From Prochlorococcus marinus str. MIT 9515 (GTDB lineage Bacteria; Cyanobacteriota; Cyanobacteriia; PCC-6307; Cyanobiaceae), in NCBI RefSeq assembly GCF_000015665.1, contig NC_008817.1:124001-188000 (forward strand): a stretch of 64,000 bases of DNA, written 5' to 3'. Made by a program: the position numbers and the translations under genes. How positions within the stretch are numbered: position 1 is the stretch's first letter; each line of letters opens with the position of its first letter. The notes below the pieces were generated by a model. That model did no database searches and was not told where the DNA came from. It worked only from the letters and a program-made list of their open reading frames with translations. Positions 5,670-17,410 of the stretch are shown here, in pieces.

Positions 5670-6347
5670 TCAGGAAATTATAGATTTTTTATCAAAACCC
5701 ATTTTTAATTGAATTCTTTTTGCCTCTTGCATCATCTCTTTACCATCAAATAAATAATCATCTACATATCCTTGTGTATATTTGTCTAGTTCTGATAAAG
5801 CATCTTTAACTTGAGAAAAACAATGATAAAGATCTAAACCAAAAGAAGATATTGTATGTGGCACAGATTTTGACTTATAAAGTTCATCAACTTTTTCAAT
5901 TTTTTTTTGGGAAAGGTTAATATAACTACAAAATTTATCCATTAATTCTTCATCATAAGGATCAGCAGATAGCTCTTTTATTTCTTGATTCAAAGGTTTT
6001 ATTATTTGGCTAATAAATCTATTCGAGGGATAATAAATATTCTTTATCCAATTTTTAACTTCGATATCCTTTACTGCTGAACTATATTTTGTAGTATTAA
6101 CTTTCTCTGCCCAATTCTCATTATTGAAATTAGATGATTGGTTTAAAGACAAGAGTGTTTTATCATATTGTTCTTTTTTAATAGGATCATTAAGAGTTTC
6201 CCATGCATCTTGTATTGCCAGAAATCTATCTTTTTCCCCTCCTGTATCAGGATGATGTTGTTTTACTAAGCGACGATAAGAAGATTTTATTTCGCTTTTA
6301 GTCGCATTTTTTTTTAAGCCTAACTCTTCATAAAAATTTTTGATCAT
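5670..6347 (-). CDS. DnaJ-domain protein
   Basis: The J-domain begins at the chosen ATG (complement of 6345-6347): NFYEELGLKKNATKSEIK, then QHHPDTGG with the HPD motif that stimulates Hsp70 ATPase. After about residue 65 there is no Gly/Phe region or zinc finger; the rest (to 225) is a unique, helix-rich domain, so it is a J-only cochaperone. A longer reading extends the frame into cysK by overlap, but that extension (30 residues) is just the cysK shadow. It lies 16 bases downstream of cysK on the same strand. Confidence 0.85.
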   Translation of the reverse strand: MIKNFYEELGLKKNATKSEIKSSYRRLVKQHHPDTGGEKDRFLAIQDAWETLNDPIKKEQYDKTLLSLNQSSNFNNENWAEKVNTTKYSSAVKDIEVKNWIKNIYYPSNRFISQIIKPLNQEIKELSADPYDEELMDKFCSYINLSQKKIEKVDELYKSKSVPHTISSFGLDLYHCFSQVKDALSELDKYTQGYVDDYLFDGKEMMQEAKRIQLKMGFDKKSIIS

Positions 6348-6363
6348 ATCTAAATACCTCTTT

Positions 6364-7332
6364 TTATAAATAACCGTCTTGTCTAGCCTGAACGACAGTA
6401 TTAGATTCAAACATTGCTGTTGATAAATATCTTTCACCGAAACTTGGAAGGATTACTATTAATCTTTTTTTAATAAATTCTTTCCTTTTACCAATTTTTA
6501 TTGCTGCGGCTAAAGCAGCCCCACTACTAATTCCTGATAAAAGACCCTCAAGTCGAGCTAATAATCTCCCATAATAAAATGCATCATCATCATCTATCTT
6601 GATTATTTCGTCTATTAACTGGGTATTGAGGACTTTAGGAATGAAGCCTGCACCTATTCCTTGGATCGAGTGAGAACTTGGCTTTTCTCCAGATATAACT
6701 GCACTTTTTGCAGGCTCAACTGCGTAAATTTTGCAATTTGGATTCACTTTTTTTAAAAATCTAGCGCACCCAGTTATTGTTCCTCCAGTACCAACCCCAG
6801 ATACTAATCCATCAATATTTTGATTAGATTGATCCCAAATTTCTTTTGCTGTTGTTCTTTCATGAATCTCAGGATTCGCGAGATTTTCAAACTGGTTAAA
6901 TTGAAAGCTATTTGGAATACTTGAAGATAATTCATTCGCTAATTCTAATGCCCCTCTCATTCCCTCTGTGCCTGGAGTAAGTTGCAATTCTGCACCATAA
7001 GCTCGAAGCATTGCCCTTCTCTCAATACTCATGGTGTCTGGCATGGTTAGTATCAATCTATAGCCTTTAGCTGCTGCAACCATTGCTAAAGCTATGCCAG
7101 TATTCCCACTTGTTGCTTCAATTAAGGTCGTTTTTCCTGGAAGTATTAAACCATCTTCTTCGGCTGAATTTAACATAGAATACGCTATGCGATCTTTAAC
7201 AGATGCTGATGGATTGAAACTTTCAAGTTTAGCTATAATTTCAGTATGACACTTACAGTAATCTTTAATACGATCTAATTTAACTAAAGGTGTGTTACCA
7301 ACTAAGGAGGTGATATCGCTTGCGATTTCCAT
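6364..7332 (-). CDS. cysK: cysteine synthase (O-acetylserine sulfhydrylase)
   Basis: This 322-residue PLP enzyme makes cysteine from O-acetylserine and sulfide. The PLP lysine is K46 in SASVKDR; the substrate loop TSGNTGIALAM and the phosphate-binding GVGTGGTITG are intact. Length fits the family. Together with cysC (54473-55099), the window holds two steps of sulfate assimilation. CysK and CysM are hard to separate by eye; I favour CysK from the NTPLVKL start. It is followed by the DnaJ gene. Confidence 0.93.
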   Translation of the reverse strand: MEIASDITSLVGNTPLVKLDRIKDYCKCHTEIIAKLESFNPSASVKDRIAYSMLNSAEEDGLILPGKTTLIEATSGNTGIALAMVAAAKGYRLILTMPDTMSIERRAMLRAYGAELQLTPGTEGMRGALELANELSSSIPNSFQFNQFENLANPEIHERTTAKEIWDQSNQNIDGLVSGVGTGGTITGCARFLKKVNPNCKIYAVEPAKSAVISGEKPSSHSIQGIGAGFIPKVLNTQLIDEIIKIDDDDAFYYGRLLARLEGLLSGISSGAALAAAIKIGKRKEFIKKRLIVILPSFGERYLSTAMFESNTVVQARQDGYL

Positions 7333-7465
7333 GGAGAAAAAGTCTACAAAAAATGAATTTGTTTATCTTAATGATAATTGCATGTATAGATCTTTTAAAA
7401 AAAAATTTTTTAATTGAAGTTAATTTAAAAACAATTTTTTATAAAAGATTGTTCTATAGTTTGTT

Positions 7466-7471
7466 TATAAT
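7466..7471 (+). promoter_or_regulatory. -10 element ahead of the 7491 gene
   Basis: TATAAT lies 20 bases before the ATG at 7491, in the divergent gap with cysK. It would drive the two-gene unit 7491-8445 with a very short leader. No clear -35 was found. Confidence 0.4.
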
Positions 7472-7490
7472 AATGTAATCACAATTTTTT

Positions 7491-7760
7491 ATGTATTCTC
7501 TTGAAATAAGTCTCAGATATTCCCCTTTCCCCCTTTCGATTCAGAAGAAGGATTATGAGGATGTTAAAAGAATCTATGATGAAATTAAAGATTTTATGCA
7601 AGGTAAAAACACCAATTCTGACTTAATTGAAATAAGCTGTGAAAAGGTTCAGGATAAATTAATTACGGTTCTTGCTAAAGAGGTTATTTCCGTTCAGATA
7701 TATGAAAAGTCCTCAGTCGCAGGGGGTTCAAAAAGACCGGGATTTTCTCTAGATATTTGA
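7491..7760 (+). CDS. conserved-looking hypothetical protein, 89 aa
   Basis: This is a soluble 89-residue protein with alternating beta and helix segments: LEISLRYSPFPLSIQKK at the start, a charged helix DYEDVKRIYDEIKDFMQG (about 22-39), and an end rich in Gly/Ser (SVAGGSKRPGFSLDI). It starts downstream of a good -10 and is 1 base from the ABC ATPase, so the pair is an operon. I do not recognise the family. A role with the transporter is possible but unproven. Confidence 0.65.
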   Translation: MYSLEISLRYSPFPLSIQKKDYEDVKRIYDEIKDFMQGKNTNSDLIEISCEKVQDKLITVLAKEVISVQIYEKSSVAGGSKRPGFSLDI

Positions 7761-7761
7761 T

Positions 7762-8445
7762 ATGAGCGAGCTGCAGGATACTTTTAAAAATAAAGTACCC
7801 AAAATAACTTTTCAGAATGTGAGTTTTTCATGGCCAGGAAAAAAAGAGCACATAATCAATAACTGTAGCTTCTCTATTAATAAAACAGGGTTATGGATGA
7901 TTGTTGGTAAGAATGGGAGTGGTAAGAGTACCTTGCTAAAGTTAATTAATGGGCTTCTTAAACCAAGTAATGGAGTTATAAACAATTTAGCTAATGTTGG
8001 GATGGTTTTTCAAAATCCTGACCATCAAATTTTAATGCCAAATTGTAGGAGCGAACTTCTTCTCAATATAAGTAAAAAATTAAGTAGAACAGATATTACT
8101 AAAAAAATTGATTTTGCACTCAACACAGTTGGATTACCTGGATTTGAAAAAAGACCAATTCATACTTTAAGTGGTGGTCAAAAACAGCGATTGACAATTG
8201 CCTGTTCCTTGATAAGCGATAAGAATTTTGTTCTTTTGGACGAGCCCACATCGCTATTGGATAGTTCTAGTCAATTAAAAGTTTTAGAAATAATTAAAGA
8301 TCTTACAAATAATAAAAGAAATCCTTTTACCGCTTTATGGATTACGCATCGTTTAGAGGAATTAAGTTACTCAGATGCGGTTGCAGAGATGAAGAATGGA
8401 AATTTATCAGATTGGCAAAAACCATTAAACTTTCAATATAATTAA
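7762..8445 (+). CDS. ABC transporter ATPase, energy-coupling-factor/CbiO type
   Basis: This 227-residue ATPase has Walker A GKNGSGKST (49-57), Q-loop region FQNPDHQI, signature LSGGQKQR (136-143), Walker B FVLLDEPTS (156-164) and an H-loop histidine (H196). The QNPDHQI Q-loop is typical of ECF/cobalt-type ATPases that power vitamin or metal uptake. No membrane partner is adjacent, so the T and S components must lie elsewhere. It is the last core gene before the tRNA-Asn element. Confidence 0.85.
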   Translation: MSELQDTFKNKVPKITFQNVSFSWPGKKEHIINNCSFSINKTGLWMIVGKNGSGKSTLLKLINGLLKPSNGVINNLANVGMVFQNPDHQILMPNCRSELLLNISKKLSRTDITKKIDFALNTVGLPGFEKRPIHTLSGGQKQRLTIACSLISDKNFVLLDEPTSLLDSSSQLKVLEIIKDLTNNKRNPFTALWITHRLEELSYSDAVAEMKNGNLSDWQKPLNFQYN

Positions 8446-8455
8446 TACTTAGCCC

Positions 8456-8484
8456 TTGTCATAAGGGACATGAAAGGGTTAAAT
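8456..8484 (+). promoter_or_regulatory. candidate promoter of tRNA-Asn
   Basis: TTGTCA (8456-8461) and TTAAAT (8479-8484) are spaced by 17 bases, and the tRNA starts 9 bases after the -10. The -35 overlaps a small inverted repeat CCCTT-GTCAT-AAGGG (8453-8467) that could also end the preceding ATPase transcript. Assigned by eye only. Confidence 0.35.
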
Positions 8485-8493
8485 TTTATATGT

Positions 8494-8565
<72 letters not shown>

Positions 8566-8576
8566 TTCAATTTCAC

Positions 8577-8610
8577 AAGACCTCAAGTGATTTCATTCGA
8601 GGTCTTTTTT
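8577..8610 (+). terminator. rho-independent terminator after tRNA-Asn
   Basis: The stem AAGACCTC (8577-8584) / GAGGTCTT (8599-8606) with a 14-base loop runs straight into a T tract. It lies 11 bases beyond the tRNA. A related hairpin follows attR at 12396-12430. Confidence 0.8.
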
Positions 8611-8682
8611 ATTTCCCTGACTGATTTTTATGAAGAAATAGAAGATCAGACATGCTCAGGATACACCAGATTCACCATTCTG

Positions 8683-8726
8683 GTGGTGGCGATATGGTGG
8701 CGAAATAGGAATTTTCATGGTGGCGA
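8683..8726 (+). repeat. integrase arm-type repeats, left cluster (3 x TGGTGGCGA)
   Basis: The 9-mer TGGTGGCGA occurs at 8684-8692, 8695-8703 and 8718-8726, all in the same orientation. The first two form a 23-bp block (8683-8705) identical to 12275-12297 near the other end. Phage-type integrases bind direct repeats of this kind beside their attachment cores, so I infer arm sites. No protein-coding explanation is convincing. Confidence 0.6.
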
Positions 8727-8767
8727 AAAATTAAATCAAATTTATAAATTTTCTCAAAAAATTAAAC

Positions 8768-8800
8768 ATAAAAAAAAGACCAGAGAAAGGTGTCTCTGGT
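8768..8800 (-). terminator. terminator of the island's minus-strand gene block
   Basis: Read on the minus strand, ACCAGAGA and TCTCTGGT form an 8-bp perfect stem with a 6-base loop (stem arms at 8779-8786 and 8793-8800), followed by C and about eight T. It lies about 90 bases after the last gene of the block (stop at 8892). Confidence 0.75.
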
Positions 8801-8891
8801 ATGTAAATTAAATCTTAAAAGTTAATTCTTTTTCTTAGAGCGAATATCTATTTTCCCCATATCTATTTATTTGATTATTGAAAAGATGATT

Positions 8892-9299
8892 TTATTTTGA
8901 TGAATTCGCTTTCATTCTCATTTTATAGAAACTCTCTTCGCATCTCATTATCATTCCTTTGTATCCCTCAGGAAAACTAGGCATATAGTTTTTCAATATA
9001 AAATCTTCTGGGAAAACGCCTTTAATTAGAAAGACCACTTTTTTATCTTTTTTAATTAGGAAATGTGGAGGGAAATCCTTCATTAATTTTTCCCAAGTTT
9101 CATCTGAGGCAATCATTCCTTTGTAATCATCAGGGAAATGCTCTCTCATGATTGGTTTAACTGCAAGGGAAGCAGGAAATCCAGTGAGGATACGAAAGTA
9201 AACTACTTTCTTTTGCTCTAAAACAAAATATGGAAATGGTATGGGTTTTTTCCCGTATTTCTTTGCATATTCATCTGTATATTGCGATTTTCTTATCAT
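8892..9299 (-). CDS. hypothetical protein with two FP-x2-YK domains
   Basis: This 135-residue protein holds two copies of a roughly 45-residue unit. The first (about 24-72) has GFPASLAV, then HFPDDYKGMIASDETWEKL. The second (about 76-124) has GVFPEDFI, then SFPEGYKGMIMRCEESFYKM. Each begins with a beta-like strand (VVYFRI, VVFLIK). Single copies occur in the proteins at 9711-9914 and, more diverged, 10725-10913. No known fold is recognised. Its ATG overlaps the previous stop (TAATG), so it is the last gene of a coupled set. It is soluble, with no cysteine pair or obvious catalytic motif. Confidence 0.7.
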   Translation of the reverse strand: MIRKSQYTDEYAKKYGKKPIPFPYFVLEQKKVVYFRILTGFPASLAVKPIMREHFPDDYKGMIASDETWEKLMKDFPPHFLIKKDKKVVFLIKGVFPEDFILKNYMPSFPEGYKGMIMRCEESFYKMRMKANSSK

Positions 9300-9532
9300 T
9301 ATTTTTTGATTTTCTTCTCAAACTCTTTAAACGATGATTTCAATTGTCCTTTATTTTCAACTGGATCATCTTTATCCAACCCTCTGATTTTTCTCCATCT
9401 GGAGTACATATAACCCAGATAGATCCCTTGCATAAAATTCTTTGCTCCATTCTCTAAAAGATTCTTCTGAAATTTATCGTTAAATCTTCCACTTTCTAAT
9501 AATTCTTTTTTCCAATCTATTTCTTTCTTCAT
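9299..9532 (-). CDS. hypothetical protein, 77 aa, paralogue of the next gene upstream
   Basis: I chose the ATG at 9530-9532, which overlaps the upstream stop as ATGA; a longer frame to 9601 only shadows the preceding gene. The 77 residues begin MKKEIDWKKELLESGRF, continue with a Gly-containing helical stretch (KNFMQGIYLGYMYSRWRK) and end Lys-rich. W-x-K-x2-L, a central LL-x2-G-x-K and a late LG line up with the 61-residue protein at 9529-9714, so the two look like tandem paralogues. Function unknown. Confidence 0.65.
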   Translation of the reverse strand: MKKEIDWKKELLESGRFNDKFQKNLLENGAKNFMQGIYLGYMYSRWRKIRGLDKDDPVENKGQLKSSFKEFEKKIKK

Positions 9533-9714
9533 TGCTGTTGCTGCTCCTCTTGTCTTTTCTTCAATTTTTCGTATTCCACATGCAGAACACCTAAACGCCA
9601 AGCACCTTTTAATCCTTTTACACCTCCCATTAGGAGTTTTGCGTCAGAAGGCGAGTGAGATTTCATGTTTAAGAAATCTTTTTGCCAAGAAGTGTCGTCC
9701 CATTTATTGCTCAT
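9529..9714 (-). CDS. hypothetical protein, 61 aa
   Basis: This short protein starts MSNKWDDTSWQKDFLN, has a glycine-rich helix (MGGVKGLKGAWRLGVLHVEY) and ends in a charged Gln run (EEQQQQ). It overlaps the genes on each side by 4 bases (ATGA at 9711-9714 and at 9529-9532), a strong sign of translational coupling and of real coding. It resembles its downstream neighbour in layout. No family recognised. Confidence 0.65.
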   Translation of the reverse strand: MSNKWDDTSWQKDFLNMKSHSPSDAKLLMGGVKGLKGAWRLGVLHVEYEKLKKRQEEQQQQ

Positions 9715-9914
9715 ACTTTCCCCCCATACTTTTTGAACTCATCCAAAGAATTTACAACTATGCTCTTGTAATCACTTGGAAACCTTTGCTTCATTATATC
9801 TGGGATTTCTAAGCAATCTGGATAGGGATTATGCAAATAAAAGATCACTTCCTTCTTTCCCTTCAAAACGATGTAATTAGATAGTCCCCCTGCATAATTA
9901 TTCTCTTTTTTCAT
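9711..9914 (-). CDS. hypothetical protein with one FP-x2-YK domain
   Basis: This 67-residue protein is a single copy of the unit seen twice at 8892-9299: a strand KKEVIFYLHNPYPD, then MKQRFPSDYKSIVVNS and a C-terminal FKKYGGKV. It is the first gene of a four-gene run in which every junction overlaps (9914 down to 8892). The presence of one-copy and two-copy forms in one operon suggests duplication within the element. Function unknown. Confidence 0.65.
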   Translation of the reverse strand: MKKENNYAGGLSNYIVLKGKKEVIFYLHNPYPDCLEIPDIMKQRFPSDYKSIVVNSLDEFKKYGGKV

Positions 9915-9953
9915 ACTGCCACCTCTTGTCTAACAATTCTTTGAACCATTGAT

Positions 9954-10310
9954 CTAATATTCCATATCATCATTGAAATCATATCCATATCCATTTTCAG
10001 TATTTGTAAGTTCTTCCAAAACTAATCTTTCAATACTCTCCTCAAATGGGACATTTTCTTCCTGAAGCATTGCAACTCCATCACCGTGTTCAATGATATT
10101 AGTGAATGCTTTTGTGATATCCATTTTAATATCAACATCAGAGTAATCCTTATCAATTCCTTTGAATTGGTTGAGAGCACCAATTCGTTTTAACTTAACT
10201 AAATCAGGATCTCTATCTACTTTTTCTGGATACATTCCATCAAAAAATTTTATAAAGAAAGCGTTTACGCTCTCTTGAAGAATCGAAAGTTTATCAACAG
10301 CACTATCCAT
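9954..10310 (-). CDS. acidic hypothetical protein, 118 aa
   Basis: A soluble 118-residue protein with a clear ATG (complement of 10308-10310). The C-terminal half is strongly acidic (FEESIERLVLEELTNTENG, then DFNDDMEY). The first half is predicted helical (AVDKLSILQESVNAFFIKFF). It lies 39 bases upstream of the FP-x2-YK run, so it may share the transcript. No motif recognised. An acidic tail is common in DNA-mimic or protein-binding factors, but that is only a possibility. Confidence 0.6.
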   Translation of the reverse strand: MDSAVDKLSILQESVNAFFIKFFDGMYPEKVDRDPDLVKLKRIGALNQFKGIDKDYSDVDIKMDITKAFTNIIEHGDGVAMLQEENVPFEESIERLVLEELTNTENGYGYDFNDDMEY

Positions 10311-10400
10311 AATAATTCTTTGGATTTCCTAAACCATTTTTATCATTTTAAAGAACTTGTCAATTAATTTTGTAAGGGTGGATTCGATAACTTTAATAAA

Positions 10401-10718
10401 TTAGTTAATTATTTTTTTAATTTTTTCTAAATTCCATTTATCAAATATTAATTTCATTTCCCTTTCGTAGTTTCTTACTTTCTTTGAGAAAGGTAGTTGT
10501 TGAATAATTATCCCAAAGGGCAATCTAATAAAAGAAGAAATATAAACTATATAAAACTCAACGAAAGATGGTTTTTTTGGAAGCGGTAAATTTTTTACAT
10601 ATGCCCAATCAATGCATGGTTTTAGTTGCTCATCACTAGCAGCAATATTTTTTCTACATCTCCACCAAGAGAATAGATAAATGCAAATAAAAATCGGTAG
10701 TGGAAGAAGTCGCAACAT
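10401..10718 (-). CDS. hypothetical membrane protein, 105 aa
   Basis: A hydrophobic N-terminal segment (LRLLPLPIFICIYLFSWW, about 2-19) is followed by RCRK, a polar stretch and a second hydrophobic run (VEFYIVYISSFIRLPFGIII, about 53-72), then a basic C-terminus. Two membrane passes are likely. It is separated from the 9954-10310 gene by 90 bases and starts 6 bases after the 10725-10913 gene. Family unknown. Confidence 0.55.
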   Translation of the reverse strand: MLRLLPLPIFICIYLFSWWRCRKNIAASDEQLKPCIDWAYVKNLPLPKKPSFVEFYIVYISSFIRLPFGIIIQQLPFSKKVRNYEREMKLIFDKWNLEKIKKIIN

Positions 10719-10724
10719 TAAATA

Positions 10725-10913
10725 TCAAGGAGAATTTTTCTTTTTGATTGAATCAAAGGTTTCTTTATTACATATCCTCATTTTGTAAGTGGGGTAACGT
10801 GTATGCCACCACTTATTGACCGCCATCGCAATCTGACTTTTAGGATTGCCACAAATATGAACCCATAGAGTTTTATCAGATTCCCTTTTGAAGTGTTCCC
10901 ATGAGGTACTCAT
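10725..10913 (-). CDS. hypothetical protein, 62 aa, diverged FP-x2-YK-like domain
   Basis: The 62 residues include LWVHICGNPKSQIAMAV, then HTRYPTYKMRICNKETFDSI. The order (strand, G-x-P, hydrophobic helix, Y/F-P-x-YK-M, later E-x-F-x2-I) follows the units at 8892-9299 and 9711-9914, though identity is low. I treat it as a possible distant member. It precedes the membrane-protein gene by 6 bases. Confidence 0.55.
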   Translation of the reverse strand: MSTSWEHFKRESDKTLWVHICGNPKSQIAMAVNKWWHTRYPTYKMRICNKETFDSIKKKNSP

Positions 10914-10942
10914 AGATTCATATTAGAGTGATAGTTTAGTTT

Positions 10943-11232: not shown

Positions 11233-11266
11233 AGGAGGTTTTATGAGACTCACCACTCCATTCACT
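11233..11266 (+). repeat. duplicated ribosome-site/start block, copy 1
   Basis: This 34-bp block holds AGGAGG, four T, the ATG at 11243 and the first eight codons. It matches 31 of 34 bases at 11415-11448; the three differences are transitions. The AGGAGG is a strong Shine-Dalgarno site, much better than those of neighbouring core genes. Confidence 0.7.
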
Positions 11267-11401
11267 GCCTTCAGAAATGCAACTTCAGATATTTGGAGAA
11301 TGCATGACTTTAACTATCAATTACCAAAAGATCAAAGGCAAGGATATTGGGAAAAAGAATGCATAGATCATCCAACCAGTGCTCATTGCAAAGTTTACTA
11401 A
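11243..11401 (+). CDS. small hypothetical protein, 52 aa
   Basis: ATG at 11243, 5 bases after AGGAGG, opens 52 codons beginning MRLTTPFTAFRNATSDIWRM, with two cysteines near the end (KECIDHPTSAHCKVY). The strong ribosome site, clean stop at 11399-11401 and the paralogue just downstream support coding. The first eight residues are shared with that paralogue (MKLITPFT); the rest differs. Function unknown. It has no hydrophobic helix. Confidence 0.6.
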   Translation: MRLTTPFTAFRNATSDIWRMHDFNYQLPKDQRQGYWEKECIDHPTSAHCKVY

Positions 11402-11414
11402 TTAACAATTAATA

Positions 11415-11448
11415 AGGAGGTTTTATGAAACTCATTACTCCATTCACT
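11415..11448 (+). repeat. duplicated ribosome-site/start block, copy 2
   Basis: Second copy of the block at 11233-11266, with AGGAGG at 11415-11420 and the ATG at 11425. Only the 5' end is duplicated; beyond the eighth codon the two genes are unrelated in sequence. Confidence 0.7.
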
Positions 11449-11571
11449 ATCCTCAATCAAAAATTTCATGAAATGGATTTGATTAGAGATGCAATGAAGA
11501 ACAGAAGATTAGCAACAGAAAGATTGCATGATGATCTCAGGAAAATGTACAAAAAGCATCAATTTGCTTAA
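11425..11571 (+). CDS. small hypothetical protein, 48 aa
   Basis: Opens MKLITPFTILNQKFHEMD and continues as a basic, helix-forming peptide (KNRRLATERLHDDLRKMYKK) to a stop at 11569-11571. It has the same strong ribosome site and leader as the 52-residue gene, 23 bases upstream. The stop overlaps the convergent integrase remnant by a few bases. A small basic helical protein could bind nucleic acid, but no motif proves this. Confidence 0.6.
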   Translation: MKLITPFTILNQKFHEMDLIRDAMKNRRLATERLHDDLRKMYKKHQFA

Positions 11572-11753
11572 ATCTTTAATCCTTGTTTAATCAAAGTCTT
11601 AGACCACCATTCCATTAATTTGCTTCTCTTATCTAAAAGAGTCGAGCGATCATAATGACCTCTAGTGCTATTTAGATGTCCCATTCTTCCTAATTGACGA
11701 TCAATAATTTCATAATCAAAATTATGTTCTTGACTTGCTGTTATGGGTAATTT
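11568..11753 (-). pseudogene. tyrosine recombinase (P4-type integrase), C-terminal remnant
   Basis: Read on the minus strand from a stop at 11754-11756, about 61 codons follow, including EIIDRQLGRMGH, then HYDRSTLLDKRSKLMEWWSK, ending at TAA (11568-11570). In P4-like integrases this region follows the catalytic R-H-R box: a V/I-I-x-RQL-x-H element carries the second-histidine region, and the Y is the nucleophile before R-A/S-x-YL-x3-R-x2-LM-x-WW. Here the spacing and the H-Y-x-R-S...LM-x-WW tail match. The N-terminal and most of the catalytic domain are gone; the repeat gene starts right beyond the break. The element cannot excise with this copy. Confidence 0.75.
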
Positions 11754-11767
11754 TTAATCTCTTATTG

Positions 11768-12073
11768 CTATGACTTTCCTATTTTTGAACCCATACCTTT
11801 CTTGAGTTCCTTTTGATATGCCTCTTTGCTTGAGATTATGATATCTTCAATCGATAATTTATTAAATAATGACTTTCCTATTTTTGAACCCATACCTTTC
11901 TTGAGTTCCTTTTGATATGCCTCTTTGCTTGAGATTATGATATCTTCAATCGATAATTTATTAAATAATGACTTTCCTATTTTTGAACCCATACCTTTCT
12001 TAAGTTCCTTTTGATATGCCTCTTTGCTTGAGAGTGTGATATCTTCAATCGATAATTTATTAAATAATGACAT
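11768..12073 (-). CDS. triple-repeat protein (3 x 33 residues)
   Basis: After a start at 12071-12073 the protein (101 aa) consists of three nearly identical 33-residue units, each SLFNKLSIEDI, then SSKEAYQKELKKGMG and SKIGK. The units are separated by no linker. Each unit predicts as charged helix ending in a flexible Gly hinge. The array keeps the frame exactly. An in-frame upstream start (12106) would add 11 residues that are the shadow of the AlpA-like reading frame. Unrecognised family; a repeated peptide-binding or nucleic-acid-binding module is possible. Confidence 0.6.
   Translation of the reverse strand: MSLFNKLSIEDITLSSKEAYQKELKKGMGSKIGKSLFNKLSIEDIIISSKEAYQKELKKGMGSKIGKSLFNKLSIEDIIISSKEAYQKELKKGMGSKIGKS
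11772..12068 (-). repeat. tandem repeat, 3 x 99 bp
   Basis: Units begin at 11772, 11871 and 11970. They differ at only a few positions, for example a G/A in the AGTT-CC stretch and a change of ATTATG to GTGTGA in the unit closest to the start codon. Near identity over synonymous as well as other positions points to recent expansion. Confidence 0.9.
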
Positions 12074-12106
12074 TTTTATTTGTAAAATTGCTTTGTAGAT
12101 GATCAC

Positions 12107-12274
12107 TTAAGTTCTCAATTCTTTTATAACCCATAGCAATTTGCACTTCAATTGTGTGAGATCTTTTTTTACAAATTTTCCTATTTTGATGAAACGATCA
12201 ATTGTTGATACTGAAATACCAAGTAGATCTGATACTTCTTTCATGCTTAAAAATGGACGATTTGGTGCGTTCAT
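12107..12274 (-). CDS. AlpA-like regulator/excisionase, apparently frameshifted
   Basis: The minus-strand frame starts MNAPNRPFLSMKEVSDLLGI, then SVSTIDRFIKIGKFVKK. FLS-M-K-E-V-S-x-LLG-IS-x-STI-x-R-x2-K-x-GKF is the winged-helix start of AlpA/Xis proteins, which control prophage or P4-type integrase genes. At an A7 run (complement of 12164-12170) the frame goes on for only 20 more residues to a stop at 12107-12109. A -1 shift there instead gives KKRSHTIEVQIAMGYKRIE and more, ending at 12060, for a total near 71 residues, the usual AlpA length. It is either a mutation or programmed slippage. Confidence 0.6.
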   Translation of the reverse strand: MNAPNRPFLSMKEVSDLLGISVSTIDRFIKIGKFVKKDLTQLKCKLLWVIKELRT

Positions 12275-12297: not shown

Positions 12298-12359
12298 ATG
12301 CCCAAATCTTCTATTTTTTTATTTCATATTCTGTCAGGGACTATCAGGAAATATTAATT

Positions 12360-12379
12360 CGATTTCCGCTCGGGGAGTT
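12360..12379 (+). repeat. attR of the tRNA-Asn element
   Basis: CGATTTCCGCTCGGGGAGTT copies the 3' end of the tRNA-Asn gene with three changes. It is not part of a full tRNA. It marks the far end of the element, about 3.8 kb from the tRNA. Confidence 0.75.
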
Positions 12380-12395
12380 ATATTTTCAAGTTCCA

Positions 12396-12430
12396 AAGAC
12401 TTCAAGTTATTCCACTTGAGGTCTTTTTCT
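12396..12430 (+). terminator. hairpin next to attR, relic of the tRNA terminator
   Basis: AAGACTTCAAGT (12396-12407) and ACTTGAGGTCTT (12414-12425) form a long stem followed by a T-rich run. It resembles the terminator after tRNA-Asn (8577-8610) and so looks like the original terminator, displaced by integration. Confidence 0.65.
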
Positions 12431-13253: not shown

Positions 13254-14327
13254 TTATTTCTTATTTCCAATTCTATTGCCTGCGTAACCTGATTTTTGCA
13301 TCATTGAATGAATCCACTTAGAGTGATTCAGATACCAATAAATAGTTTTTTTTAACCCATCTTCAAAAGTTACTTTAGGAGTCCAACCTAACTTTTCTTT
13401 GATTAAATTTGAATTTATGGCGTATCTAATATCATGCCCCGGTCTGTCTGTAACATTTTTAATAAGAGATTCATGAGGAAATTCTTTGGGAGCAACCGCA
13501 TCAAGAATTTTACATATTTGAAGTTGAACTTCTTTATTAGTTCTCTCACCAAATCCCCCTATACAGTAACTCTTTCCAACTTCTCCCTTTTCAGCGATAA
13601 GTAATAAAGCTTCTACATGATCTTCTACATATAACCAATCTCTTACATTTAAACCATTTCCATAAAGAGGTATTTTTTCCCCTTTAATTCCTTTTAAAAT
13701 ACTTAAAGGGATAAGTTTTTCTGGGAATTGATATGGCCCAAAGTTGTTACTACAATTCGAAATTATAGTAGGTAAACCATATGTATGGTACCAACTTTGT
13801 GCCAAATGATCACTAGAGGCTTTACTAGCAGAATATGGACTTCGAGGAGAATATTTAGTATTCTCATCAAATTTTCCATCTAATCCCAATGATCCGAAGA
13901 CTTCATCTGTGCTTATGTGAATAAATCTAAATAATTGTTTTTTATTATCACTTAATTTTTTCCAATAAGCTCTTGAGGCCTCAAGTAAATTAAAAGTTCC
14001 TATGATGTTGCTCTCTATAAATTTTAATGGGTTATCAATTGATCGATCAACATGACTTTCAGCTGCAAGATGTATTATCAAATTAGGATTTATCTCTTTG
14101 ACTAAATTTTCTAATATTTCTTTGTTCCTTAAATCAATTTTCAAGAAGAAATGTCTAAATTTATAGTCCTCTGAATTTTTTATCCACGATAAGTCACTTG
14201 CATAGCCCATTTGATCCAAGTTATAAACAACCCAGTCTTTTTTTTCTTGCAATATCTTTCTTATTAAAGTCCCTCCAATAAAGCCTGCTCCTCCCGTAAC
14301 AATTATCTTATATTTGTTTTTTATCAT
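13254..14327 (-). CDS. rfbB: dTDP-glucose 4,6-dehydratase
   Basis: This 357-residue SDR enzyme makes dTDP-4-keto-6-deoxyglucose, the entry to rhamnose and other deoxysugars of surface glycans. It has GGAGFIGGTLI (about 12-22), the STDEVFG motif, YSASKASSDH with the YxxxK pair, and the substrate motif NVRDWLYVEDH. rfbA, rfbC and rfbD are not nearby, which is unusual for this pathway. Neighbours are a GT61 transferase and an ABC exporter on opposite strands, in line with a surface-sugar role. Length fits the family. Confidence 0.9.
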   Translation of the reverse strand: MIKNKYKIIVTGGAGFIGGTLIRKILQEKKDWVVYNLDQMGYASDLSWIKNSEDYKFRHFFLKIDLRNKEILENLVKEINPNLIIHLAAESHVDRSIDNPLKFIESNIIGTFNLLEASRAYWKKLSDNKKQLFRFIHISTDEVFGSLGLDGKFDENTKYSPRSPYSASKASSDHLAQSWYHTYGLPTIISNCSNNFGPYQFPEKLIPLSILKGIKGEKIPLYGNGLNVRDWLYVEDHVEALLLIAEKGEVGKSYCIGGFGERTNKEVQLQICKILDAVAPKEFPHESLIKNVTDRPGHDIRYAINSNLIKEKLGWTPKVTFEDGLKKTIYWYLNHSKWIHSMMQKSGYAGNRIGNKK

Positions 14328-14434
14328 GAAATATGTAAAATAAATAAATTTTTCTTTATAAAAGAAACTTTAAATAATGATAGGATATTCCTAAATTAGC
14401 TCTTATTTATTAATAGCAATAATTATATTTTTTA

Positions 14435-15577
14435 ATGTATTCAAAAATAAAAAACAAACTTAGGTTTAATAGAGTTACAAGAATAATCAGGTTTAAAAAT
14501 AGGATATCTGCTAATGAAGCATGTACCTATTGGCTGAAAAATAATAAAAACAAATTCACATATGAAGATAATAATATTAATTCCTTTAATTTGGATATCA
14601 CACCAATAGATCAAAAACCTATTCCCTTGTATTTCCTCTGGGCAAACCCTGTAATATCAAGAGCAAGGTTTATCTATTCTTTCAACAATGTAGTAGTTTC
14701 ACCTTATGAATCTCATATCTATTTTTATGATATTGATAAATCGACATCAGATCTTGGAACTAAATTTGATAATGACAAATTATCCTTATTTGATTTTTAT
14801 AAAAAGAATGAACTCTTCGCAGCTAAAGAGCTAAAAGGGAATGTTTTACATTTAGGTATTTCATCAAATCCTTCAAATTTTTATCATTGGATACATGAAA
14901 TATATGCAAGGATATTAAGAATTAAAAAAAAATATGATCTTAACAAATTTGATTTTGTGATTATGCCTAAATTAAATAATAAATTTCAGAAGGAAGCTTT
15001 AGAGTTATTAGAATTTGATACAAGTAAAATTTTAAGTAGTGAAAAATTTTATAAATGTACTGGTAATTTAGTAACTGCCAATATAGATATTATTGCTTCA
15101 GGGTTAGATCTAAGAAACTTTTTTGCTAACAATCATGAACTAAAGAGCAATAAACTTAAAAAATATTTTTTAGATAGAGACTCTAATAGCGGAATACAAA
15201 AAAGAGAACTTATAAATTTTGATAGATTTAAATCTAAATATAAAGATGCAGGATTCGAATTTGTAAAACCTGAACAATTGTCTTTTAAAGAACAACTGAA
15301 AATATTTCTTTCTGCTAAATCTCTTGTTGGTGTAAGCGGATCTGCTTTCTGTCTTGTTTCATTAATGAATGAAGGTTCAAAAGTTGTAGAGATATTCTCC
15401 AAAAGTTTCGTTGATCCTGCTATTTCTAACATATGTGCAGCATCTAATTTAAAATATGGATTTTATATTGAAGATTCATATAGACCTAAAATTGAAAATA
15501 ATTGGGTTAGAGATCTAAATTCAAAAATAAATGCGGATTTAATTGATCATGAAAAAATTATTAAATTCTTTATTTAG
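14435..15577 (+). CDS. glycosyltransferase family 61 (DUF563) protein
   Basis: This 380-residue protein has the GT61 core: NFYHWIHEIYARILR (about 149), FVIMPKLN, and the C-terminal acceptor-side motif VSGSAFCLVSLMNEGSKVVEIF (here given in parts: VGVSGSAFCLVSLMN, then EGSKVVEIFSK). GT61 enzymes transfer xylose or GlcNAc in eukaryotes; bacterial members are mostly in glycan clusters with unknown donors. There is no signal peptide, so it acts in the cytoplasm. It diverges from rfbB and converges with the ABC exporter. Confidence 0.75.
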   Translation: MYSKIKNKLRFNRVTRIIRFKNRISANEACTYWLKNNKNKFTYEDNNINSFNLDITPIDQKPIPLYFLWANPVISRARFIYSFNNVVVSPYESHIYFYDIDKSTSDLGTKFDNDKLSLFDFYKKNELFAAKELKGNVLHLGISSNPSNFYHWIHEIYARILRIKKKYDLNKFDFVIMPKLNNKFQKEALELLEFDTSKILSSEKFYKCTGNLVTANIDIIASGLDLRNFFANNHELKSNKLKKYFLDRDSNSGIQKRELINFDRFKSKYKDAGFEFVKPEQLSFKEQLKIFLSAKSLVGVSGSAFCLVSLMNEGSKVVEIFSKSFVDPAISNICAASNLKYGFYIEDSYRPKIENNWVRDLNSKINADLIDHEKIIKFFI

Positions 15578-15649: not shown

Positions 15650-17410
15650 TTAATTGGAGTCATATTTATATTTGTATTCTTTTATATTTTGGTACTTAAT
15701 TAATTTTTTATTTTTTATTTCAAGTATATAATCGCAATTTTTCAATGTTTGTAATCTATGGGCAATCATTAAAACAGTTATCTCTGGATTATCAGTAATT
15801 ATATTATCAAGGATGCTTTTTTCAGTTTCCGAATCTACAGAACTTGTCGCTTCATCAAGTATTAACAGAGAATGTTTCTTATAAAGTGCTCTTGCTATTG
15901 CTAATCGTTGCTTTTGGCCTCCACTTAACCTAATGCCATTCTCTCCGACAAAGGTCTGAAGCCCATAACTAAGAGAATTTACAAGATCTTGTAACATTGA
16001 AATTTTCACTACTTTATTTAGTAGTTTGTAGTCAATTTTAGATTTAGATTTCCCAAAAACTATATTTTCTTCAATAGTTCTATCTAATAAAAAATAATCT
16101 TGAGGGACACTGGATACTGATAATCTAAATCGACGAAATAGATTAGGGTCCATTTTTTTTTCATCTATATAGATATAACCAGAATTGGGTTTTATTAAGC
16201 CTAAAAGTATATCTATAAAAGTGGACTTCCCAGTTCCAGTTTTACCAACAATACCAATTACTTCTCCTCTCTTGATAACTAAGTTTATATTTTCTAGTAC
16301 TGTATTTTCTTTATAAGAAAAACTAATATTTTCAAATCTAATTTTATTTTTTATTTCGAAATTATTTACTAATTTATCTCTTGAATTGTGTTTGTGCTTT
16401 TTGGTCTCCTTCAATAGTTGAACTACTGAATTTACACTTAATTTTTCTTGCCTTATAAAGAATACAGATCGAAATGTTTTTTGAAAAAGAGGCAATAATT
16501 TTTGCAATCCTAATATGAATGCCCCGCCTTTTGTAAGGTAGTTATAAAAATCAATTCCAGATAAATAAATAAATATGATCGATATTACAAGCCCAGACAA
16601 TATTAATGACTCCATTAAGTATCTCGGGATTTGAGAAATAGTATTAGAGTTTGTGTTGGCTAAGGTATTTTGAATATTATTTTTATCATATTCTTGAATA
16701 AAAAAACTATGCGAATCATCTAAAATGATTTGTCTTATAAAACCTAATGATTCCTGAACTATTCTTATAATATTTTTCCTAGTTTCAAATATTATTTTCC
16801 CATAGACATCAACATATTTTTTTGTCGATTTAGATGCAATCACATAGAATAATAATGAAAAAGTAAAAATACAAATTATAATTTTAGAATCAATAATAAA
16901 TAAAGAGATAGTAATACCTAAAATATTAAGAACTGAAAGACCTAGTAATAAGCTCTCAGAAATAACAGCTAAAGAGGACTCAAGCTGCTGTATCTGTGTA
17001 CTAATTAATTGACTAGAATTTGTATTTAAATGATATTCATAGTCTTGATATAAAATTTCTTTATATAATTTTTTGCCTAATTCAATATTAAGAGTGCCCC
17101 CAAAATCATTTATTTTTTTTATACAAAAAATCTTTATTAATCCAGAAAATAATATTATTATTAAAAATGAAAAAGATATAAATATAAATAATTGATCAGT
17201 TTGTTGAAAATTAAAAAAATCTGAAATTCTTCTTAAGAACTCTATTTCTAATATCTTATTTGGATTGCTGACAAAAGATATGAAAGGAACCATTGTTCCT
17301 ATTGTCATAAACTCTAAAAATGAATTTAAAAAAATAATAAATATTATAAAAATAAATTTTCTTTTTGTATGTTTACTTAAATATGAAACTAATTCAAAAA
17401 TTTTAATCAA
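15650..17410 (-). CDS. MsbA/PglK-type ABC exporter (fused membrane and ATPase domains)
   Basis: This 586-residue half-transporter has six helices in about 1-320, then an ATPase domain with Walker A GIVGKTGTGKST (about 390), signature LSGGQKQR and Walker B LLILDEATSSVD. It exports lipid-linked or hydrophobic substrates across the inner membrane, acting as a homodimer. Together with rfbB and GT61 it suggests export of a surface glycolipid. Its Lys- and Asn-rich, AT-heavy coding is like other accessory genes here. The C-terminus continues past the Walker B as a normal tail. Confidence 0.88.
   Translation of the reverse strand: MIKIFELVSYLSKHTKRKFIFIIFIIFLNSFLEFMTIGTMVPFISFVSNPNKILEIEFLRRISDFFNFQQTDQLFIFISFSFLIIILFSGLIKIFCIKKINDFGGTLNIELGKKLYKEILYQDYEYHLNTNSSQLISTQIQQLESSLAVISESLLLGLSVLNILGITISLFIIDSKIIICIFTFSLLFYVIASKSTKKYVDVYGKIIFETRKNIIRIVQESLGFIRQIILDDSHSFFIQEYDKNNIQNTLANTNSNTISQIPRYLMESLILSGLVISIIFIYLSGIDFYNYLTKGGAFILGLQKLLPLFQKTFRSVFFIRQEKLSVNSVVQLLKETKKHKHNSRDKLVNNFEIKNKIRFENISFSYKENTVLENINLVIKRGEVIGIVGKTGTGKSTFIDILLGLIKPNSGYIYIDEKKMDPNLFRRFRLSVSSVPQDYFLLDRTIEENIVFGKSKSKIDYKLLNKVVKISMLQDLVNSLSYGLQTFVGENGIRLSGGQKQRLAIARALYKKHSLLILDEATSSVDSETEKSILDNIITDNPEITVLMIAHRLQTLKNCDYILEIKNKKLIKYQNIKEYKYKYDSN

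Follow-up and report, generated by a model that had tools for sequence, protein, structure and literature searches.

We describe FPYK, a domain of about 53 amino acids (aa), in a small island beside a tRNA-Asn gene of Prochlorococcus marinus str. MIT 9515; the stretch analyzed spans 64,000 nucleotides (nt) of contig NC_008817.1 and is hereafter called the window. Four units of the domain (A1, A2, B, and C) lie in three minus-strand open reading frames (ORFs) of the window. Comparison of related loci, numbered here with the prefix L, shows that the FPYK gene behaves as a portable ORF-sized module. Because the gene start often overlaps the end of a mobile-element gene, we infer that FPYK is translationally coupled. 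Our best explanation, with a probability of roughly 45%, is that FPYK is a portable accessory protein, made by translational coupling in the DNA-processing operons of mobile elements and likely acting with a second small-protein family, D. Prochlorococcus is among the most abundant phototrophs of the ocean, and its islands are filled with hypothetical small genes. FPYK offers a way into these genes that is defined by sequence and open to testing; it is often joined to a small serine recombinase, and it provides an example of single ORFs whose homology begins and ends exactly at codon borders.

One domain in four window units

Pairwise alignment scores between the units were each tested against 2000 shuffles. 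The scores of A1-A2 (74), A1-B (86), and A2-B (60) were not reached by any shuffle (0/2000 each) and that of A1-C (40) by 1/2000, while A2-C (517/2000) and B-C (208/2000) were not significant. By these outcomes A1, A2, and B are related on their own evidence, and C is weak. A profile built from units A1, A2, and B (profile A3), in which C played no part, recruited seven domain sequences from other genomes. When the resulting seven-sequence profile was run unfiltered against the 553 window ORFs, the three FPYK ORFs took ranks 1-3: 8895-9317 (E = 3.1e-19), 10728-10922, which contains C (5.4e-11), and 9714-9929, which contains B (1.1e-10); the next ORF scored 0.16. A preliminary description of this DNA had proposed a domain shared by four units and had called the one at 10725-10913 weaker. 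The ORFs are where it had placed them, on the minus strand, the shared domain is upheld by both tests, and C is indeed weak in pairwise comparison yet clearly recovered by an independent profile. As judged from sequence, all four units are one domain. Its approximate consensus, read from an alignment of 25 diverse members (A4), is PPH-x-V-x4-KEV-x-F-x-I-x-SG-FP-x2-L-x-I-x3-MK-x2-FP-x-DYKG-x-V, with a late F or W.

FPYK is a domain undescribed in Pfam, NCBIfam, and PHROGs as searched. At E <= 1 the three window proteins had no Pfam or NCBIfam match and two weak PHROGs rows (E 0.41 and 0.15). The 25 members, at E <= 0.1, gave single-member rows only (three in Pfam, the best at 0.01, two in PHROGs, and one in NCBIfam), which we take as chance. 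No paper on the domain was found within an open-access library, and the earlier remark that no known family came to mind agrees with the library searches of both protein sets.

Structures of two units were predicted with AlphaFold2. The model of B, from 54 alignment rows, has a mean predicted local distance difference test score (pLDDT) of 82.6 and a predicted template modeling score (pTM) of 0.70, with strands at 14-17 and 22-26, a helix at 30-44, a strand at 50-54, and a helix at 57-64. That of C, from an alignment of six C-type rows only (A12), has pLDDT 82.9 and pTM 0.63, with strands at 5-10 and 15-20, a helix at 27-39, a strand at 44-48, and a helix at 50-60. Compared by element order, the two models share a predicted beta-beta-alpha-beta-alpha arrangement. 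In alignments made for A1-A2 (A10 and A11), nearly all rows fall on the second half. Foldseek searches with the B and C models returned E values of at least 0.37 in the PDB and, for B only, at least 0.14 in BFVD. The best VIA alignments (B: Z 4.3, root-mean-square deviation 4.6, 62 residues aligned; C: Z 5.5, 3.0, 60 residues) are at the common-background level, and in a sequence-profile search of solved structures no match scored better than E 0.066. Among the families listed, no solved fold (KH-II, gelsolin-like, GspE N-domain, and others) rises above background, which does not imply that the fold is novel. The structural comparison that the preliminary description had proposed is thus positive in part: the element orders of B and C agree, and no known fold stands out with Foldseek or VIA-align.

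FPYK occurs almost exclusively in Prochlorococcus. Profile A3 matched 45 of 266 genomes of the genus at E <= 1e-3, among the matches listed, and 86 at E <= 1, many of which look like chance. A 25-row profile at E <= 0.01 matched 129 of 400 genomes and 28 of 59 genera of the same family, although its weakest rows may be chance, and all 67 loci found in one scan of a named genome collection (query A8) were from Prochlorococcus. A draw of 292 cyanobacterial genomes across the phylum yielded 13 matches, 12 of them within the same family; the thirteenth (G719, E 7e-4, three stops) was taken as chance. G407, a family member with a larger genome, holds a copy with an internal stop. The search of cyanobacterial and phage proteins suggested at the outset gave many matches in the former and none in the latter: FPYK was absent at E <= 1 from 50,697 phage records with four queries (A1A2, an A2-type sequence, B, and C), and from viral contigs in six pattern-based scans, which did not extend to C-type units. 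A plasmid search with one query returned only Borreliella at E 0.4-0.5, taken as chance.

The preliminary description had further supposed that the domain was multiplied inside the element. This idea was rejected. Among 130 distinct domains compared, identity between window units is at most 0.40, against 0.75 (A1), 0.78 (A2), 0.96 (B), and 0.95 (C) for their closest relatives outside the window, and 18, 32, 82, and 12 outside domains, respectively, are closer to these units than any window neighbor. As outside relatives are far closer than window neighbors, the units were not multiplied in place; the FPYK subtypes are old and were brought together. A1 and A2 are separate adjacent genes in L022, L027, L057, L059, L071, and L072, and fused in L058, in L025 (with a stop inside), and in the window. 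The overlapping genes noted earlier are found for B, D1, D2, and A1A2 (ATGA, ATGA, and TAATG junctions) but not for C, from which two other ORFs separate them.

FPYK is under purifying selection. Median ratios of non-synonymous to synonymous substitution rates (dN/dS), from pairs that are not independent, are 0.096 for B, 0.126 for A1, 0.135 for A2, and 0.209 for a further subtype, N. Two loci contain duplicated FPYK genes: in L109 those at 310-678 and 6058-6426 form a 369-nt inverted pair (98% identical) flanking 5.4 kb, and in L107 those at 14212-14511 and 15907-16206 are direct copies of 300 nt, identical and separated by 1.7 kb.

Gene borders and upstream partners of FPYK

The commonest neighbor cluster within 6 kb of FPYK is a small serine recombinase, present at 42 of 110 distinct loci, followed by a TPR-like cluster (named by eye) at 41/110. 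In 41 of 43 cases the recombinase ORF precedes FPYK and shares its strand, at -261 to +361 nt as measured between stop-to-stop ORFs, and in some loci one small ORF stands between the two. Sorted by the gene immediately upstream, the 140 distinct FPYK contexts include 33 with a recombinase, 18 with another FPYK, 8 with an ORF of 64 aa, 2 with a tyrosine integrase, 1 with D, and 35 with some other gene. The gap between recombinase and FPYK is -4 nt in 31 of the 33 contexts (-1 and 110 in the other two), and 14 of the 18 FPYK-FPYK gaps are also -4. The two integrase contexts are L063, with a gap of -1, and L037, with a gap of 11. Among the 35 others are L049, where a longer serine recombinase precedes FPYK (gap -4), and L146, where a B-type gene overlaps by 4 nt the stop of a type I restriction gene, HsdR (6858-10171). 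In L096, L110, L111, L118, L136, L141, L152, and L158, a conserved 64-aa ORF (MDECVVNAC...GEWMYNPLSEEI or close variants) stands ahead of FPYK, with its start 4 nt within the end of the recombinase gene.

The same junction is seen from the side of the recombinase. Among 71 distinct recombinases examined, 50 end in ATGA; 44 have an FPYK or D gene, and in 31 of these the stop overlaps the first FPYK or D start (ATG) by 4 nt. Among the 150 PF00239 rows listed in a recombinase-centered search, a listed FPYK lies 159-655 bp downstream in 29 of 55 rows from genomes of up to 2.05 Mb and in 0 of 95 from larger ones. Inspection of the ATGA junction by eye, with no formal motif test, revealed no symmetrical recombination motif, just a Shine-Dalgarno-like sequence and ATGA. 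The two recombinases scanned match PF00239 (E 7.9e-25 and 1e-28), with Resolvase at 4-142 and a weak HTH_7, below cut-off, from 145 or 147. In IS607-type transposons, a small serine recombinase likewise overlaps a second ORF, its DNA-binding domain is N-terminal to the catalytic one, and TnpB lies downstream. The FPYK-linked enzymes scanned differ, with the catalytic domain first and the helix-turn-helix second; here the place of the second ORF is taken by FPYK, D, or some further small ORF, and neither FPYK nor D is TnpB.

FPYK shows no sign of following the ancestry of the recombinase ahead of it. B proteins that are 100% identical occur behind recombinases of 28-32% identity, and over 32 B-recombinase pairs median identity is 0.30 for the recombinases and 0.83 for B. 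A Mantel test finds no relation between the two sets of identities (r 0.02, 1531/5000), and no co-evolution of recombinase and FPYK was seen. We compared the flanks of 103 B gene pairs, not independent of one another, with at least 93% DNA identity: upstream DNA is non-homologous in 47 and downstream DNA in 23. At upstream breaks, identity is low and uneven, climbs over about the last 13 nt (the ribosome-binding region), reaches 1.00 across ATGA, and stays mostly above 0.8 inside the gene; at downstream breaks it drops two nt past the stop codon.

Exchange of small genes with ORF-exact borders behind a recombinase recalls integron gene cassettes, which depend on an IntI-type tyrosine integrase and attC sites. 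FPYK operons differ in being headed by a serine recombinase, with no sign that this enzyme moves ORFs; no attC-like repeat was noticed at the junctions by eye, no attC search having been run. It seems doubtful, though conceivable, that Prochlorococcus has a cassette system headed by a serine recombinase, in which FPYK, D, the 64-aa ORF, and others would be exchangeable ORFs at Shine-Dalgarno/ATGA junctions, shuffled by the recombinase or by recombination at the junction.

FPYK is also found where the recombinase is gone. In the window, the 46 nt ahead of B, which include a GAGGTGG ribosome-binding-like stretch and end in the ATGA that starts B, are identical (46/46) to the end of the recombinase gene of L067; the best of 200 shuffled islands reached 12. 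L067 carries, in this order, the acidic ORF, C with a changed C terminus, the 105-aa ORF, the recombinase, B, D1, and D2; set beside it, the window has the look of a decayed version that keeps the recombinase tail. The island is a decayed tRNA-Asn insertion in which the final 14 codons of a lost serine recombinase gene, with its ribosome-binding-like stretch, have been retained ahead of B. Recombinase tails without an intact recombinase occur in 8 of the 78 contexts classed as other or none (window, L065, L113, L149, L150, L157, L162, and L167); since the tail pattern recovers only 21 of 33 intact tails, this count misses some cases.

Partner D and possible roles of FPYK

Downstream, FPYK is often followed by D. 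Both window members, the paralogues D1 and D2, match phrog_16908 / phrog_869, to which FPYK has no match. At 129 distinct FPYK ends the next family genes are two D genes (30), one D (14), FPYK then D (2), FPYK alone (18), or none (65). D was found in 73 phage records with one query and 52 with another, and the three records inspected are all Kyanoviridae. Cyanophage P-TIM68, whose recorded host is MIT9515, has two tandem overlapping D-family ORFs (L190, 4872-5331; E 7e-15 and 5e-7). FPYK itself had no match better than E 0.17 in cyanophage D neighborhoods.

In the explanation we prefer, FPYK would be translated by coupling to the upstream gene, often a small serine recombinase and rarely a tyrosine integrase or HsdR. 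It would most likely be a small protein-interaction module working with D, and the two may act on transactions of element or phage DNA (recombination, replication, restriction). Several observations weigh against this explanation. Some serine recombinases carry D, the 64-aa ORF, or a different small ORF where FPYK would otherwise stand, so the slot rather than FPYK may matter. By the ORF rule used, 43 of the 140 contexts have no close upstream gene, and in several genomes FPYK lies near a tRNA gene without a recombinase of the main cluster. Both flanks are common to 39 of the 103 near-identical B pairs. Retention of FPYK after recombinase loss in eight contexts and its attachment to HsdR run contrary to a role in recombination and would fit independent cargo. 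Finally, since fold matches stay within noise, function cannot be derived from structure.

FPYK could instead be independent element cargo directed against phages or rival elements (defense, exclusion, or counter-defense), borrowing the ribosome-binding site of any recombinase or restriction gene ahead of it. This we hold to be rather unlikely, although recombinase exchange, the copy behind HsdR, and survival after loss keep it close behind; in the window FPYK is intact with both recombinases lost. The sharing of D with cyanophages including P-TIM68, and an assortment of FPYK subtypes that varies between genomes, are also consistent with cargo. Against it stand the absence of FPYK from the phage records and viral scans described above and the PADLOC matches of the window FPYK and D proteins, none better than E 0.029.

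A recombination directionality or architectural factor directly required by the recombinase would explain the 4-nt coupling, the position of FPYK next after the tyrosine integrase in L063 and L037, and the basic character of the window members (pI 9.0-9.8). We consider this improbable: recombinases with 28-32% identity and no correlated divergence precede identical FPYK proteins, FPYK outlives the recombinase, and, unlike Xis, AlpA, and Cox, it has no winged-helix or MerR-like helix-turn-helix match in Pfam, NCBIfam, or PHROGs. More generally, exchange among recombinases of about 30% identity, survival after loss, and the HsdR case make it unlikely that FPYK is a dedicated subunit of any single recombinase.

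FPYK and D are small, translationally coupled, mobile, and paralogous, as a toxin-antitoxin-like maintenance pair might be, but such a pair is very unlikely, given that 83 of 129 FPYK ends lack D as the next family gene within 600 nt (some because the locus ends), that D is also present without FPYK, and that no known toxin-antitoxin family was matched in the libraries searched. Least credible is ordinary mosaicism at gene borders sweeping along non-functional small ORFs, which would account for border breaks, microhomology in the Shine-Dalgarno region, and the existence of broken FPYK copies, but is already disfavored because of purifying selection (median dN/dS about 0.1 over 68 distinct B sequences).

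The tRNA-Asn island and its surroundings

The island around the window genes, with its serine recombinase tail, integrase remnant, and tRNA-Asn repeats (Table 1), extends what the preliminary description had reported.

Table 1. Positions of the island features in the window
Feature	Position	Strand	Evidence
tRNA-Asn (GTT), island integration site	8493..8566	+	ARAGORN
Left iterons TGGTGGCGATA, TGGTGGCGAAA, with a third copy at 8718	8684..8728	+	Match count vs shuffles
Two-domain FPYK protein A1-A2 (135 aa)	8892..9299	-	Shuffle tests, profile search
FPYK unit A2	8901..9083	-	72.8 bits
FPYK unit A1	9069..9248	-	79.1 bits
D2, phrog_16908-type small protein, ATG at 9532	9299..9532	-	PHROGs E 3.8e-12
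D1, paralogue of D2; start overlaps B stop (ATGA)	9529..9714	-	PHROGs E 5.3e-8
FPYK unit B, single-domain protein (67 aa)	9711..9914	-	Shuffle tests, profile search, AlphaFold2 model
Serine recombinase gene 3' remnant (46 nt), last 14 codons (RSMVQRIVRQEVAV-stop)	9911..9956	-	Comparison with L067
Acidic ORF (118 aa, pI 4.2)	9954..10310	-	Stop codon at junction with recombinase remnant
105-aa ORF, conserved beside C in L065 and L067	10401..10718	-	Locus comparison
FPYK unit C (62 aa)	10725..10913	-	Profile search, model
C-terminal tyrosine integrase remnant (61 aa)	11571..11753	-	Integrase profile
Excisionase-like helix-turn-helix ORF (55 aa)	12107..12274	-	phrog_66 E 1.4e-5
Right iterons TGGTGGCGATA TGGTGGCGAAA	12276..12297	+	Match count, genome search
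Degraded copy of tRNA-Asn 3' end with terminator hairpin, island right end	12358..12428	+	Repeat comparison

A copy of the tRNA-Asn end at the far boundary provides the direct repeat of a tRNA-integrated island; it matches 8546-8609 in two pieces, each 82% identical. The iterons have five matches in the window against 0.63 expected (0/100 shuffles reach five), and the paired form TGGTGGCGATATGGTGGCGA occurs at two places in the whole genome, one just inside each island end. They are probably integrase arm-type sites. Of the 553 window ORFs, one alone is significant (E 1.2e-25; next 0.079) in a search with an integrase profile, built on five sequences taken from other genomes; it aligns to model positions 379-437, the last of the model. 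Profile member L161 matches PF00589 (E 4.5e-7), whereas Pfam gives nothing for L170, which position and score identify with the L065 sequence. The window island lacks an intact tyrosine integrase and holds this remnant only.

Tycheposons are reportedly tRNA-integrated Prochlorococcus elements with variable cargo; the window island resembles them in tRNA integration and differs in its size of 3.9 kb and lack of an intact integrase. A preprint on new tyrosine-integrase elements of marine picocyanobacteria, whose mechanism it states is not yet known, mentions tRNA-Phe and tRNA-Cys and, in the parts considered here, names neither FPYK nor D (PMC10187409). The window island, by comparison, lies in tRNA-Asn with an integrase remnant only. 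The FPYK-linked small serine recombinase is possibly the one noted near the new integrase in those parts of the preprint.

FPYK ORFs lie within 5 kb of a tRNA gene in 52 of 157 cases, compared with a fraction of 0.213 when positions are drawn at random from those loci, a weak signal, with some loci being duplicates in reverse orientation. N-type genes lie 156-298 bp from tRNA-Asn or tRNA-Phe, without a main-cluster recombinase, in L033-L035 and L045-L047; of these, L033 (C1:315881) belongs to the same genome as the window, as a second locus there. In the DNA that follows the same tRNA-Asn in L261-L287, several genomes show by eye differing short direct repeats at a distance of about 100 bp, as if each held the arm sites of another integrase.

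The excisionase-like ORF matches HTH_17 at E 1.3e-4, under the Pfam cut-off, and PADLOC mad1 (E 1e-6) across just residues 5-37, which probably reflects the general similarity of helix-turn-helix sequences. Next to it, 11768-12106 (minus strand) holds three 99-nt tandem repeats, 93-100% identical, encoding a 33-aa unit (SLFNKLSIEDI...KGMGSKIGK) with a relative in L120. Two short plus-strand ORFs, 11243-11401 and 11425-11571, have a common 41-nt start region (85% identical), and relatives of the second adjoin N-type FPYK genes in L034, L035, and L045.

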